A stretch of DNA of 64,000 bases from NCBI GenBank assembly GCA_027623235.1, contig JAQBVJ010000002.1:62001-126000 (forward strand), written 5' to 3'. The notes under the pieces were generated by a model. It was not told the origin of the DNA and made no database searches. It was given only the letters and a program-made list of their open reading frames with translations. Source of the DNA: Planctomycetota bacterium (GTDB lineage Bacteria > Planctomycetota > Planctomycetia > Planctomycetales > Planctomycetaceae). The position numbers and the translations under genes are program-made. Each line of letters begins with the position of its first letter. The stretch's first letter is position 1. Below, in pieces: positions 1 through 7,737 of the stretch.

Positions 1-5
1 GTGGA

Positions 6-947
6 CTATTCCGCGAAGGGATCCCAGTCGCCACTCCGAGGCTTGCCGAAAACATCGCGCAGTACAGCCTTCGTCAGAAAGCGGAAATTCCGCCAGTACC
101 GGCCAGCCGGCCGCGAGGGCTCCATGGCGAGGCGATACGCCCACTCCATGCCGAGCTTTTGAATAAGTTTCGGAGCCCGGGAGACATTGCCGACGACGAA
201 ATCGAACGACGCACCGACTTGAACACAGAGTGGAATGCCCAGTGACTGACAGTGCTCAGCGATCCACTTTTCCCCTCTGGGTTGCCCAAACGCGACGAAG
301 AGAATGTCCGGCTTCGCTTCGCGGATTCGGTTGAGCATCGCGTTTTCCTCGTCGTCGGTCAGTTCGCGAAATGGCGGACACTCGGTTCCGGCGACCTGCA
401 GTCCCGGATAGCGGTCGGTGAGAATTCCGGCCGCCGTTTCCGCGACGCCCTCTGCTCCGCCGAGCAGGAACACGCGGTGACCTCGCCTGGACGCCCACTC
501 GTTCATGGAGAAGATCAGCTCCGAGCCCGCGACACGTTCCGGGATCGTCGTTTCACCGGGAAGCAATCGTGACCACCAGACGATGGGCATCCCGTCGGCA
601 ATGATGAAAGCCGCCTGGCGGTTGATCCGATCAAGTTCCGGAAACTCATCAGTCAGCATCACGTAGTTGAGATTGGCTGTGATGAAGTAGCCGGGTTCGC
701 GGCTTCGAATCCGCTGATCGGCGAGGTACAGAGTCTGCTCGAGCGTCAATCGGGAGAACGAGACGCCCCAGATCCAGGAGGGTCTGGGAATAGCCACTCG
801 CGAATCATCTGTGTTGAGCAGTCGCTCGGTTTCCTGAAGATTCGCGAGATGACGCTCGACATGACCGAGAATTTCTTTCGGGCTCTGATTGAGAGCGTCG
901 AGTTCTCCTCGTGAGACATTCGCCTCTGCAATTGCGGCTTTGGTCAT
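6..947 (-). CDS. WecG/TagA/CpsF family glycosyltransferase
   Basis: The 313-residue product matches the WecG/TagA/CpsF family, which transfers a sugar (typically ManNAc or ManNAcA) from UDP-sugar to a lipid-linked acceptor during exopolysaccharide or teichoic acid-like polymer synthesis at the inner face of the membrane. Family hallmarks are visible: the N-terminal FITANLNYVMLTDEFPELD segment, IADGMPIVWWSRLL with the conserved DG(M/x)P, the FLLGGAEGVAE loop, and the C-terminal ILFVAFGQPRGEKWIAEH followed by VGASFDFVVGNVSRAP. The first 60 residues are an extra charged helix. The ATG at 947 is preceded by GAGGAA seven bases away. It stands alone at the window edge; the acceptor cannot be told. 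Confidence 0.92.
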   Translation of the reverse strand: MTKAAIAEANVSRGELDALNQSPKEILGHVERHLANLQETERLLNTDDSRVAIPRPSWIWGVSFSRLTLEQTLYLADQRIRSREPGYFITANLNYVMLTDEFPELDRINRQAAFIIADGMPIVWWSRLLPGETTIPERVAGSELIFSMNEWASRRGHRVFLLGGAEGVAETAAGILTDRYPGLQVAGTECPPFRELTDDEENAMLNRIREAKPDILFVAFGQPRGEKWIAEHCQSLGIPLCVQVGASFDFVVGNVSRAPKLIQKLGMEWAYRLAMEPSRPAGRYWRNFRFLTKAVLRDVFGKPRSGDWDPFAE

Positions 948-1242
948 CGTCGTTTCCTCGTTCTGAGGGGATCACTTCAGGCGTTGAGTCATATGCCGGT
1001 CTGACAGTCCTGCCTCGTCGCGTTTCGTTGGCAGCAGGACGCATGAATGTAGCTCACGCTGCTCAGTCTCCTGGGAGGTGTCTGTCGCAATCTGCCTGTT
1101 TTGTCTGAGCGGTGACTTCGCGGCTATCCAGCCGACCTATGGTTGCGGCACGACCGGAGTCCGGCGCGTCCTGGCACCGGGCTCTGGTGGCCCAGAAACA
1201 CCGCACCGACTCATTGCGATACTTCGATCCGGAAGGAATGTC
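948..1242. other. Divergent intergenic region
   Basis: This 295-base gap separates two divergent genes and must hold both promoters. It contains a weak hairpin (gtcctgc at about 1006 with gcaggac at about 1033). An open frame from 1078 runs into the phosphorylase but lacks family similarity and a Shine-Dalgarno site, so I treat it as non-coding. No confident promoter boxes were found. Confidence 0.4.
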
Positions 1243-2592
1243 ATGACAACAGCGACATCGACTCACGAAACGTCAACACTCTCTCCACAGGCCTCGAACC
1301 TTCGCGACTCGATCGCGCGGCATCTCAGATACACCGTCGGAGTCACGCGAAACGACGCGCGGCGTACCGACGTCCTGAACGCACTCGCCTCCTCGATTCG
1401 GGAACGTCTGGTCGACGGGATCGAGGAAACGGAAACCCGATACAACGATGCCGGGGCCAAGCGGCTTTATTACCTGTCGATGGAATTCCTTGTCGGGCAG
1501 TCTCTGGAAAACAACCTTCGTAATCTGCACCTCTATGATGAGACGGTCGCTGCTCTGGCCGATCTTGGTTACGACCTGTCGTCACTGTTTGATGCGGAAG
1601 CGGATGCCGCACTGGGCAACGGTGGACTTGGCCGACTTGCCGCGTGCTTCCTGGATTCTCTCGCGACGCTCGGCATGCCTGGCTTCGGCTACGGGATCAA
1701 TTACGAGTACGGGCTCTTCCGTCAGGAGATTAAAGGCGGGTCTCAGCGGGAACGCCCCGACGCGTGGATGACGGGCGAAACTCCCTGGCTGATCGAGCGC
1801 AAGGCGGAAGCGTGCCTCATCCCGCTTTACGGCCGCATCGTGCATGACTACTTCGCGATCACCGAAGACAACTGGACTCCGCAGGTTCCGCGAACGTACA
1901 TCTTCTCCGGAAAAGCGGCCCCGGGTTACTGGGCGGCCAGGCAGATCATCCGATTGATCAGTCAGCTGGGACGGATCATCAACAGCGACCCGTGTGCCAG
2001 CCAGCACATGCGCGTTGTCTTTCTGCCGAATTATCGGGTCAGCCTTGCCGAGCGAATCTTTCCGGCGTCGGATCTCAGTGAGCAGATTTCGACAGCCGGT
2101 TATGAAGCGTCCGGAACCGGCAACATGAAATTCATGTTGAACGGGGCGATCACGATGGGCACGCTGGACGGAGCCAACGTCGAGATGCTTGAGGAAGTCG
2201 GCGACGACAACATGTTCATTTTCGGCGCGGACGCCGCGGAAGTTCAGCATGCCAAACACTCCGGCCGCTACCGACCGGAAGACTACTACAACGCGAATCC
2301 GCATATTCGTCGCGTGATGGACTCTCTGAATTCGAGCCGCTTCTGTCCGAGCGAGCCGGGTCTGTTCGAGTGGATCTTCCATTCGCTGATGCTCGACAAC
2401 GAGTCGTACTACCACCTCGGTGACTTCGAGTCGTACCTCGACGCGCAGCATCAGGCGGGCGAGCTGTTCGCGGACCGAACCGCGTGGGCTCAGCAGGCGA
2501 TCCGCAATACGGCGGCCGCGGGAAAATTCTCCAGCGACCGAACGATCCGCGAGTACGCCAGCGAGATCTGGGATATCCGTTCTTTCGTGTGA
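1243..2592 (+). CDS. glgP: Glycogen/alpha-glucan phosphorylase lacking its central region
   Basis: Full-length phosphorylases of about 800-830 residues cleave alpha-1,4-glucan with phosphate to glucose-1-phosphate using pyridoxal phosphate. This product has 449 residues. Residues 1 to about 200 match the normal N-terminus (YYLSMEFLVGQSLENNL, ALGNGGLGRLAACFLDS, NYEYGLFRQ), and from about residue 212 it continues directly into the C-terminal domain (VPRTYIFSGKAAPGYW, VVFLPNYRVSLAE, DLSEQISTAG, EASGTGNMKFMLNG). The PLP lysine (K296 here) is kept. Missing are the NDTHP, TNHT, NGV and NGITPRRW blocks, about 350-360 residues, which carry much of the active site. The reading frame is open across the junction near 1840-1885. 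The ATG at 1243 follows GGAAGGA. Activity as a phosphorylase seems unlikely; an assembly misjoin is possible. Confidence 0.85.
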   Translation: MTTATSTHETSTLSPQASNLRDSIARHLRYTVGVTRNDARRTDVLNALASSIRERLVDGIEETETRYNDAGAKRLYYLSMEFLVGQSLENNLRNLHLYDETVAALADLGYDLSSLFDAEADAALGNGGLGRLAACFLDSLATLGMPGFGYGINYEYGLFRQEIKGGSQRERPDAWMTGETPWLIERKAEACLIPLYGRIVHDYFAITEDNWTPQVPRTYIFSGKAAPGYWAARQIIRLISQLGRIINSDPCASQHMRVVFLPNYRVSLAERIFPASDLSEQISTAGYEASGTGNMKFMLNGAITMGTLDGANVEMLEEVGDDNMFIFGADAAEVQHAKHSGRYRPEDYYNANPHIRRVMDSLNSSRFCPSEPGLFEWIFHSLMLDNESYYHLGDFESYLDAQHQAGELFADRTAWAQQAIRNTAAAGKFSSDRTIREYASEIWDIRSFV

Positions 2593-2610
2593 TGTTTCCG
2601 GCTGAACTGA

Positions 2611-2667
2611 GTCCGCGAGCGTTGCCTCGCGGACTTGTCTGCAGCTGTGCCCTCTGGATGAGGGCAC
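2611..2667 (+). repeat. Two tandem perfect hairpins in the glgP-kinase gap
   Basis: A 9-bp perfect stem (2611-2619 with 2626-2634, six-base loop) is followed twelve bases later by an 8-bp perfect stem (2647-2654 with 2660-2667, five-base loop). Neither has a long T-run, so they are weak as intrinsic terminators. They could slow RNA decay or attenuate read-through into the kinase gene at 2721. Confidence 0.5.
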
Positions 2668-2720
2668 GGCGACAGGTTGCCTCGCCCTGGGCGATTTGCC
2701 CGCCAGCGGATTCAGAAACC

Positions 2721-4997
2721 ATGACTCCTACTTCGCATCAAATTCCGCCAACTTCAGACGACGCCCAAGACGCATCGGACGATTATGACGATGTTGTCTC
2801 AGTGGCTGATGACGATCCGGATCGGGCGGCGGCGTCAAAGAGCGACTGCTCTGAGGGCGACACGGACTCTGTCCGTGAGAACGACCATGAGCAGAATCTG
2901 ACCCGCGCACTTCAGGCGGCCGAGGACGGCAGTCGACACAAGACGGAGTTTCTGACGAACATGAGCCACGAGTTGCGTACGCCGCTCAACGGAATTCTTG
3001 GCATGTCGGAATTGATTCTGGATACGGAACTGTCTCCGGTTCAGAGCGAATACCTGGGACTGATCCAAACATCCGCGCACGACCTGCTGGCGATCATCAA
3101 TGACGTCCTGGATTTCTCGCGAATCGAGGCCGGACGGTTCCGGCTCGTCCCTGCCCGGTTCGATATTCGGGAACAGCTCAAAACATCCATTCGAGCTCTG
3201 GCAGTGCGGGCTCAGCAGAAGGGACTGGAATTCGTTTATCGAATCACGCCTGGCGTACCGGGAACAGTCATCGCCGATGCGCGGCGGCTCGTGCAGGCCT
3301 TGTCGAACCTCGTCGGAAACGCCATCAAGTTTACCGAGCAGGGTGAAATCGTCGTTGAGGTCGCAGTCGCCTCTCAGACAGATTCGACGGTCACACTGAA
3401 TTTTCAGGTCCGCGATACCGGCATTGGAATTGCGCCGGAAGCGGCGGAAACGATCTTTGACGCGTTTCGACAAGTCGACGGTTCGACGACTCGAAAGTTC
3501 GGCGGAACCGGGCTCGGTCTGGCGATCACAAATCAACTTGTCGAGATGATGGGCGGTCGCATCTGGCTGGAAAGTCGACACGGTAAAGGCAGCCTCTTTC
3601 AGTTTACGGCTGAGTTCGGACGGACCGCTGACGAGCGTCAGGACCGGACCGCTCTACCCGCGATTCTGAAGGGACTCGAAGTCCTCGTGGTCGACGACAG
3701 TCTCATGAGCCGGAAGGTTCTTGAGGAAATGCTCTGCCGCAACGGCATGAAGCCGACCCTCGTGGCCGACGGAACGATCGCGCTGCAGATGCTCGAGAAG
3801 GCTCACAAAGCGGGCTCGCCGTGGCCTCTGGTTCTGGTCGACGATCGAATGCCGCGCGTTCACGGATTCATCATCGCTGAAACAATCAAGGAGAGACCGG
3901 AACTCGCCAGCGGCCTGATCATGATGATCACGCCGGGTGACCGCCGGACCGCGCAGCAGCGGCTGAGAGAACTTCACGAAGCCAGCCGGCTGATTCCGGA
4001 CTCGATCAAGTATCGCGAGGCAGGTGATCCTCACCGTCGCCGGACTTCCCTTGAGCGATGTCAGCACCTGGAGCTGTCCTGTGTGCTGAAGCCAGCCAGT
4101 GAAGAAGAGCTGATCCGTGTGATCTGCGAGGTGGCGGAAGAATCGGTCCAGGCGGCAAGGCCGGTCGGCGAAGCGAACTTGAATCGCGCTCCACGCAAGT
4201 CGGAAGCTCTGAAAGTGCTTCTGGCTGAAGACAACCGAATCAACCAGACCTGCGCCGTGCATCTGCTCCACAAAAAGGGATACGAGGTCGCCGTCGCAAA
4301 CAACGGACGGGAAGTTCTGGCTTTGCTCGCCAGTGAGTTTTTTGATGTCATCCTGATGGATGTGCAGATGCCCGAACTCGATGGCTATGGGGCAACGATC
4401 GAGATTCGTTCGTCGACAGATTCGGTCATCAGCAATCTGCCAATCATCGCTTTGACCGCTCACAACAACGCAGGGGATCGCGAGCGATGTCTGGCGGCCG
4501 GAATGGACGGATACGTCGCGAAGCCGATTCAGCCAGGCGATCTGTTCGCCGAAATCGACCGAATCCTCAACAAAACAGAGAAGTCGGATCTGGTTGAGCC
4601 AGTCGACTTACTCTCAGGCGATGCGATCGCCGATGGAGACGATGAACTTCCCGTTCTTGATCGAGAAGAAGTCCTGCGACGTGTTGAGGGAAATATCGAA
4701 TTGCTGAGAATTCTGGTCGGCACGTTCGAGTCATCCCGGATCGAGTATGTCCGCCACATTCGCGCAGCGGTCGATGCCGGGGACACGGAAACTCTGGAGA
4801 CGGCCGCTCACGGGCTCAAAGGAGCGGTTGCGACGCTCGGAGGGGCTCGCGCCCGCGACGCAGCATTCCGGCTGGAAACAATGGGCCGGAATGGTCAGCT
4901 CGAACGAGACGCGGCCAACGCCGTGGGGGCGCTGGAGGGCGAACTGGGACGGCTTCAAACGGAGCTGAGGGATCTTGTTGCGGAAGGAACGGACTGA
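2721..4997 (+). CDS. Soluble hybrid histidine kinase (HisKA-HATPase-REC-REC-Hpt)
   Basis: A 758-residue phosphorelay protein. Residues 1-60 are an acidic, low-complexity leader without membrane spans or a PAS/GAF domain. The HisKA H-box has the phospho-accepting H83 in FLTNMSHELRTPLNGILG; the ATPase domain spans about 187-300 with NLVGNAIKF and GGTGLGLAI. A first receiver (about 317-475) holds LVVDDS and the phospho-Asp of LVLVDDRMP, with a longer than usual stretch before its KPA. A second receiver (about 497-620) holds LLAEDNRIN, VILMDVQMP and YVAKP. A C-terminal Hpt domain carries AAHGLKGAVATLGG. This architecture resembles BarA/EvgS-type relays, but the sensor is absent, so its input must come from a partner or the acidic leader. 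The stop overlaps the next start as TGATG. The ATG at 2721 is chosen because upstream codons lie in the phosphorylase gene; its Shine-Dalgarno is weak. Confidence 0.9.
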   Translation: MTPTSHQIPPTSDDAQDASDDYDDVVSVADDDPDRAAASKSDCSEGDTDSVRENDHEQNLTRALQAAEDGSRHKTEFLTNMSHELRTPLNGILGMSELILDTELSPVQSEYLGLIQTSAHDLLAIINDVLDFSRIEAGRFRLVPARFDIREQLKTSIRALAVRAQQKGLEFVYRITPGVPGTVIADARRLVQALSNLVGNAIKFTEQGEIVVEVAVASQTDSTVTLNFQVRDTGIGIAPEAAETIFDAFRQVDGSTTRKFGGTGLGLAITNQLVEMMGGRIWLESRHGKGSLFQFTAEFGRTADERQDRTALPAILKGLEVLVVDDSLMSRKVLEEMLCRNGMKPTLVADGTIALQMLEKAHKAGSPWPLVLVDDRMPRVHGFIIAETIKERPELASGLIMMITPGDRRTAQQRLRELHEASRLIPDSIKYREAGDPHRRRTSLERCQHLELSCVLKPASEEELIRVICEVAEESVQAARPVGEANLNRAPRKSEALKVLLAEDNRINQTCAVHLLHKKGYEVAVANNGREVLALLASEFFDVILMDVQMPELDGYGATIEIRSSTDSVISNLPIIALTAHNNAGDRERCLAAGMDGYVAKPIQPGDLFAEIDRILNKTEKSDLVEPVDLLSGDAIADGDDELPVLDREEVLRRVEGNIELLRILVGTFESSRIEYVRHIRAAVDAGDTETLETAAHGLKGAVATLGGARARDAAFRLETMGRNGQLERDAANAVGALEGELGRLQTELRDLVAEGTD

Positions 4998-6660
4998 TGG
5001 TGGAGGCACTCGCCAATGATGGAATTCTGGTTCTCGGACATCGCAATCCGGACACCGACGCGTCGGTGTCGGCCCATGCCTGCGTCAGTTTTCTACAGCG
5101 AACCGGACGCTATCAGGAACCCGTCACCGCAGGGATCACGGGGCCGCTTGGCCCGCAGCGCAGGCCAGCTACGTGTGCGAACGGGCCGGGGTCGCTCATC
5201 CGCCGCTCGTCACCGATCTTCGTCCGCAGGTTCGCCATGTGGCGAGGCGGACGACGGACTACCTCACGACATCGCATCGGCTGCGCGACGCCATGACACT
5301 GCTGATTCGGACCGGGCACAGCATGCTGCCGATCCTTAACAGCGACAATCGACTGCAGTGCGTCTTCAGCCATCGCCAGGACGCAAGTCGGTTTCTGCTC
5401 GGCTTCGATGCGGCGTCCGTGCTGAGCACGCTGCTCGACTGGAATGATCTTGCGGCACTGCCGGGCGCGACGTCGCTGGGGCAACTGCCCGAGTCACCGG
5501 TGCTGACGGGCAACCTGCATGTCGCGCTCGAGTCATCGACCGACCCGGAAATCGACGACGTCTTCGTCTGCGGCTCGCTCGACACGGCGGCCCGCATTTC
5601 CAGCGACAAGACACCAAAGTGGATTCTGTGCGTCTCGACCGTCGTTCCGCCGGGCGCGGGAGTCGACGCGCTCAACCGTCGCGGCAGCTTCATCATCCAC
5701 TACCAGAACACGCTGACAAATCTGCTGTCGTCCCTGACCGGGCAGGTTCGACTCGGGTCGCTCAGTCTTGCGGGCGGAGCGTGCGTCGGCGAAACCGACT
5801 TTGTCCACGACGTCCGGGACATCATTCGCGGCGCGCGACATGCCCTGCCGGTCGTTAACGAACATCAGTCGCTCGCCGGTGTCGTCTCGGCCAGCGATCT
5901 GCGGAACGCTCCGAAGCGGCAATTGATTCTCGTCGATCATTTTGAGTCGTCGCAGTCGGTCCGAGGCGTCGAATTGGCAGAGATTCTGGAGATCGTCGAC
6001 CACCACCACATTGGCGACATCGTCACGACGACTCCGGCGCGAGTCGACTGCCGTCCTGTCGGGTCGACTTCGACAATCATCGCGCTGAAACACGAAGAGC
6101 ACGGAATCGAGCCGACACCGGAAGTGGCCATGCTGCTTCTGGGTGGTCTGGTGTCCGACACGCTGTGCCTGACCGGACCGACGACGACGGATTCGGATCG
6201 ACGCATCGCACCGCGGCTCGCCGAGCTGGCCGGTGTCGAGCTCCAGGAGTTCGGACTGGATGTCCTGCGGTCCGGCGACGATCTCCTCACCGCGGACCCG
6301 GCCAGTATCTGGAGCCGCGATCAGAAGGTCTTCAGTATCCGGAACCAGAAATTCGCGGTCGCCCAGCTGGAAACGGTCTCACTGGAGTCGCTTCCGGAAG
6401 ATCGCCTGAATGCGTTCCGGAAGGAACTGCTGGCCGACTTCCAGAAGAACCAGTGGCTGCTCAGTCTGCTGGTCGTCACGGATGTGCTCACGGGCAATTC
6501 GTGGATCACGGCCGCGGAATCGGGAGCGGCAGAAAGCGTCCTGCAGACATCGTTTGGCGACGAGCATCCTCAACCGGACTGGACGCTCGCGTCCGGTGTG
6601 GTGTCACGCAAGAAACAGGTCATCCCGCGTCTCATGCAGGCGCTGGCCGAGTCGAACTGA
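4997..6660 (+). pseudogene. Family II (Mn-dependent) inorganic pyrophosphatase with CBS-DRTGG-CBS insert, frameshifted
   Basis: The protein is split over two frames: 4997 to about 5158 encodes the N-terminus with the metal-binding LGHRNPDTDASVSAH motif, and about 5159 to 6660 encodes the rest. Restoring one G between 5158 and 5159 gives a smooth GPQAQASYVCERAGV junction. The remainder has a first CBS repeat (RLRDAMTLLIRTGHSMLPI), a DRTGG-like middle, a second CBS repeat (ARHALPVVNEHQSLAGVVS), then the DHH core (ILVDHFES, IVDHHHIGD, GGLVSDTLC) and the C-terminal SRKKQ substrate motif. All catalytic residues are therefore present except for the break. The family hydrolyses pyrophosphate and is controlled by adenine nucleotides at the CBS pair. 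The start overlaps the kinase stop (TGATG). No slippery heptamer is present. Either a recent lesion or a one-base sequencing error. Confidence 0.85.
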
Positions 6661-6729
6661 GCCGGCCCCGATCGGCGGCCTGTTCAATAACGATCAGAAT
6701 TTCACGTATCACTTATCAGGAACATTCTC

Positions 6730-7737
<1,008 letters not shown>

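Follow-up and report, generated by a model that had tools for sequence, protein, structure and literature searches.

The open reading frame at positions 1243-2592 (forward strand) of the window, by which we mean the whole 64,000-nucleotide stretch analyzed here (bases 62001-126000 of a 131-kb contig), encodes a 449-residue protein that fuses, in frame, the N-terminal ~200 residues of a GT35/GlgP phosphorylase to its C-terminal ~250. We consider it likely that a second GlgP-type alpha-glucan phosphorylase gene, specific to this lineage, survives here as an inactive remnant created by one recent deletion of ~1.12 kb. Such a deletion, which we infer to have occurred in the real genome and to be recent, would have removed the codons for a stretch that corresponds to roughly residues 208-581 of the human liver enzyme.

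The PF00343 profile matched the open reading frame in two stretches (467 bits in total, exceeding the cut-off of 27), the best of which paired residues 199-445 with profile positions 468-713, while the N-terminal stretch extended to profile position 96. Glycogen phosphorylases were the best solved-structure relatives, and in the alignment with the human liver enzyme residues 18-203 corresponded to 25-210 and residues 202-446 to 586-828, with nothing between. The product missed the curated cut-off of TIGR02093 (543.7 versus 552.9 bits) and fell short of the full-length GT-B architecture (about 800-850 residues). The ATG at 1243 is preceded by a putative Shine-Dalgarno sequence, GGAAGGA (1231-1237, forward strand). 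Profile and structure-relative alignments placed the N-terminal phosphorylase part (residues 1-197) at 1243-1833, with the glycine loop LGNGGLGRL retained at residues 124-132. The C-terminal part, placed by profile and alignments, occupies 1846-2592 including the stop codon and retains the PLP-attaching lysine, K296 (nucleotides 2128-2130), in the motif EASGTGNMK, an invariant column of the family. Between these parts, which like the junction lie on the forward strand, alignment with full-length relatives revealed a single gap of 373-374 codons (about 1119-1122 nucleotides) at 1834-1845 (codons 198-201, CGC ATC GTG CAT). The first-pass annotation had recognized the in-frame fusion of N- and C-terminal regions and the retention of the PLP lysine, both of which we confirmed; it had also recognized the in-frame central loss, but its estimate of about 350 residues was too low, and the junction, which it placed near 1840-1885, in fact lies at the very start of that interval.

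It had further reported that NDTHP, TNHT and NGITPRRW, blocks of the glucan site, are absent, and this too proved correct. The PLP-phosphate block, VKRIHEYKRQ, likewise falls in the deleted columns and is presumably the block that contains K534 and K540 of E. coli MalP. Those two lysines coordinate the phosphate of PLP (PMC11046441). Since these four blocks are deleted, the 449-residue product, to judge from its sequence, cannot function as a phosphorylase through the known mechanism. The frame itself remains open, having accumulated no further stop or frameshift.

We also compared AlphaFold2 models of the short form and of an intact orthologue, using the same 18 alignment rows for both. With so few rows the contrast is a weak one: the short form reached a mean pLDDT of 55.8 and a pTM of 0.47, the intact orthologue 68.9 and 0.54. 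Around the PLP lysine (residues 263-320) most pLDDT values of the short form stayed under 50, and those of the intact orthologue were mainly between 52 and 78. Because the glycine-loop region was modeled poorly in both, the difference between the two models is weak evidence for an impaired fold. A fold search with the short model returned phosphorylases for all of the best 50 matches listed (query TM 0.41-0.46), and no alternative fold was among them.

The position of the gene ties it to a full-length counterpart. A block of six genes has the same order and orientation in the window genome and on contig C124 of a relative (G069), namely those for a PP2C-type response regulator, WecG, GlgP, a hybrid histidine kinase-Hpt protein, a DHH/CBS/DHHA2 protein and a UDP-sugar epimerase-like protein. 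In the window genome the block spans L115:8653-17737, that is, window positions 1-7737 plus the preceding 1.35 kb. Immediately upstream of the shortened gene is a WecG/TagA/CpsF glycosyltransferase gene (6-947, reverse strand; PF03808). Downstream, assigned by domain matches and all on the forward strand, are genes for a hybrid histidine kinase with HisKA, HATPase_c, two Response_reg and Hpt domains (2721-4997), for a DHH/CBS/DHHA2 pyrophosphatase-like protein (4997-6660) and, at the end of the block, for an NAD-dependent epimerase/UDP-glucuronate decarboxylase-like protein (6730-7737). The G069 block has an additional response-regulator-like frame of ~321 codons between the hybrid kinase and DHH genes.

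The G069 phosphorylase gene (L133:7853-10354), the nearest relative in the family (170 genomes), sits like the shortened gene between WecG and the hybrid kinase on the same strand, but it is a complete frame of 834 codons, whereas its counterpart encodes only 449 residues; the two are 63% identical in the C half and 52-53% identical in the N half. Given the synteny of the six genes, the shortened gene is the positional orthologue of the G069 glgP, and the full-length state is ancestral. The first-pass annotation had looked to related genomes for a full-length or equally shortened orthologue; the former is thus present in G069, and none of 107 loci in which the spacing between N- and C-terminal regions could be measured (a set that includes a few overlapping fetches of one gene) was equally shortened, their spacing being 982-1150 nucleotides with a median of 1120. 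Our search, which covered the family (170 genomes), the class (398 genomes) and cross-phylum loci, yielded no shortened phosphorylase architecture and no congeneric genome, and a literature search returned nothing on shortened phosphorylases. Short-frame matches in three genomes (G300, G389 and G420) were set aside, as they either continued without a break across the middle region or were truncated at contig ends. In public drafts, apparent frameshifts divide two phosphorylase relatives, L035 (4191, 5794) and L066 (3055, 4594), into two frames each.

Phylogenetic analysis placed the C half of the shortened gene as sister to the G069 gene (support 100/96) and left the position of the N half open. 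The N half was nearest to rows other than G069 (57-58% identity), and this unsettled difference between the halves might be taken to mean that they derive from two phosphorylase genes joined by recombination, an account to which we give almost no credence. Sisterhood of the N half with G069 was not rejected (p-AU 0.279), the 10-point difference in identity between the C and N halves is modest, exceeding the mean for intact pairs by about 1.1 sd, and synteny extends to both sides of one gene. A two-gene chimera therefore appears not to be needed and is not supported by these comparisons.

Of the alignment columns conserved across 95% or more of the intact relatives, the shortened gene kept 52 of 53 in the N half and 66 of 71 in the C half, which is within the range of intact enzymes, and Tajima counts against the intact orthologue disclosed no significant excess of changes on its side in either half. 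No relaxation of constraint was therefore seen, as would be expected if the loss were very recent but also if it were an artefact of assembly. The ratio dN/dS over the remaining sequence, which the first-pass annotation had thought informative, did show dN below dS in both halves (Nei-Gojobori; 0.47/1.45 in the N half and 0.31/1.70 in the C half), but it is a weak guide, because dS is close to saturation and the values describe mostly the time before the deletion. The simplest reading is that normal phosphorylase selection acted on the gene until very recently, or that it still does and the assembly is wrong.

This pattern also bears on a further possibility, that a single in-frame deletion gave rise to a stable, selected fragment of 449 residues, for example a PLP-binding protein or a subunit-exchanging regulator that pairs with the intact phosphorylase. 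The open frame, the start codon, the Shine-Dalgarno-like sequence, the PLP lysine and most residues of the PLP loop have all been kept, which speaks for such a protein. We nevertheless regard this account as improbable: the family, class and cross-phylum loci searched offer no equally shortened protein, the syntenic orthologue is full length, the PLP-phosphate lysines of VKRIHEYKRQ are gone and the predicted fold is poor. Moreover, the constraint is that of the whole enzyme and not of a new protein, and a fragment kept for long would be expected to lose residues that serve only in packing against, or acting with, the deleted half. Of the three options raised in the first-pass annotation, then, the repurposed PLP protein is disfavored, the inactive remnant is favored and an assembly deletion survives.

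How might the deletion have come about? The junction reads YGRI-VHDYF (the hyphen marking the join), and the corresponding flanks in relatives are ...YGR(I/V)EH... on the left and ...(H/R)(I/V)(I/V)HDYF... on the right. When the sequence as it now stands was scanned for repeats, no long one was found at the junction; the first-pass annotation's statement that no obvious repeat is present thus holds for long repeats, but the parental sequence is likely to have had a brief stretch of microhomology. The parental flanks, now lost, probably had a short word in common, in one and the same codon phase (CGCATCG, for instance), across which replication slippage or microhomology end-joining could have acted. 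Same-phase microhomology would explain both the site of the junction and the open frame, which could otherwise have been preserved by chance (about 1 in 3).

The main competitor of a real deletion, less probable in our judgment but carrying appreciable weight, is that the genome contains a full-length second glgP from which ~1.12 kb was dropped in contig building or consensus calling. The draft (7.4 Mb) is fragmented into 253 contigs, the remaining residues resemble those of a working enzyme and a frameshift in the neighboring DHH/CBS gene could be a base error. On the other hand, completeness (93.65%) and contamination (0.57%) are good, the junction is internal to the 131-kb contig and the flanks share at most the short junction word, far too short for the usual k-mer collapse in assembly. 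Nor was the missing segment left on another contig: when the middle segment of the nearest relative was used as query, it matched only a paralogue on contig C30, and we therefore rejected the idea that the missing middle had been misplaced. Together, the short junction word and the absence of a leftover middle favor a real deletion in the sampled population. The C30 paralogue, the only other phosphorylase of the draft, is an intact GlgP of 822 residues (G000:C30:8971-11376; L001, L114) on a short contig of 11.5 kb, close to its end; it is distant, being about 47% identical to the shortened protein in the C half, and its presence may have made the loss tolerable.

The frameshift next door calls for caution against over-trusting this stretch. 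The DHH start (GHRNPDTD, 5024-5164) and the remainder of the gene (5161-6651) are in different frames, with a net frameshift near 5150-5165, whereas the G069 orthologue is one frame of 560 codons; the disruption may reflect either another genuine lesion or an erroneous base. Tiling the window by codon usage did not yield a firm number of additional frameshifts. Meanwhile, GC and GC3 of the shortened gene match those of neighboring genes, so that composition was uninformative as to horizontal arrival.

Counting against an inactive remnant, then, are the possibility of an assembly deletion, the open frame with no second lesion in it and the insecure placement of the N half with the syntenic orthologue. 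In practice, automated pipelines will annotate 1243-2592 as a glycogen phosphorylase even though most of the active site is missing, and the real GlgP of this genome is encoded on a different contig. Should the deletion be real, a freshly broken duplicate has been caught before decay; if it is not, the open reading frame serves as a flag for assembly error.

Finally, we compare the shortened gene with known systems. Like GT35 enzymes of the GlgP/MalP type (PF00343, TIGR02093), it has the glycine loop and the PLP lysine, and its N-terminal ~200 and C-terminal ~250 residues are about 42-63% identical to those of intact bacterial enzymes. Unlike them, it lacks ~373 central codons, including those for the glucan-site and PLP-phosphate blocks, and scores under the TIGR02093 cut-off. 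We read it as an ordinary case of a broken gene rather than as a novel type of enzyme. With in-frame deletion pseudogenes of duplicated metabolic genes it shares a single internal deletion, an intact paralogue in the genome, an intact orthologue that occupies the corresponding locus of a relative (the G069 block) and the lack, as yet, of a second lesion; we see no difference of note from that class, of which it is an ordinary instance.
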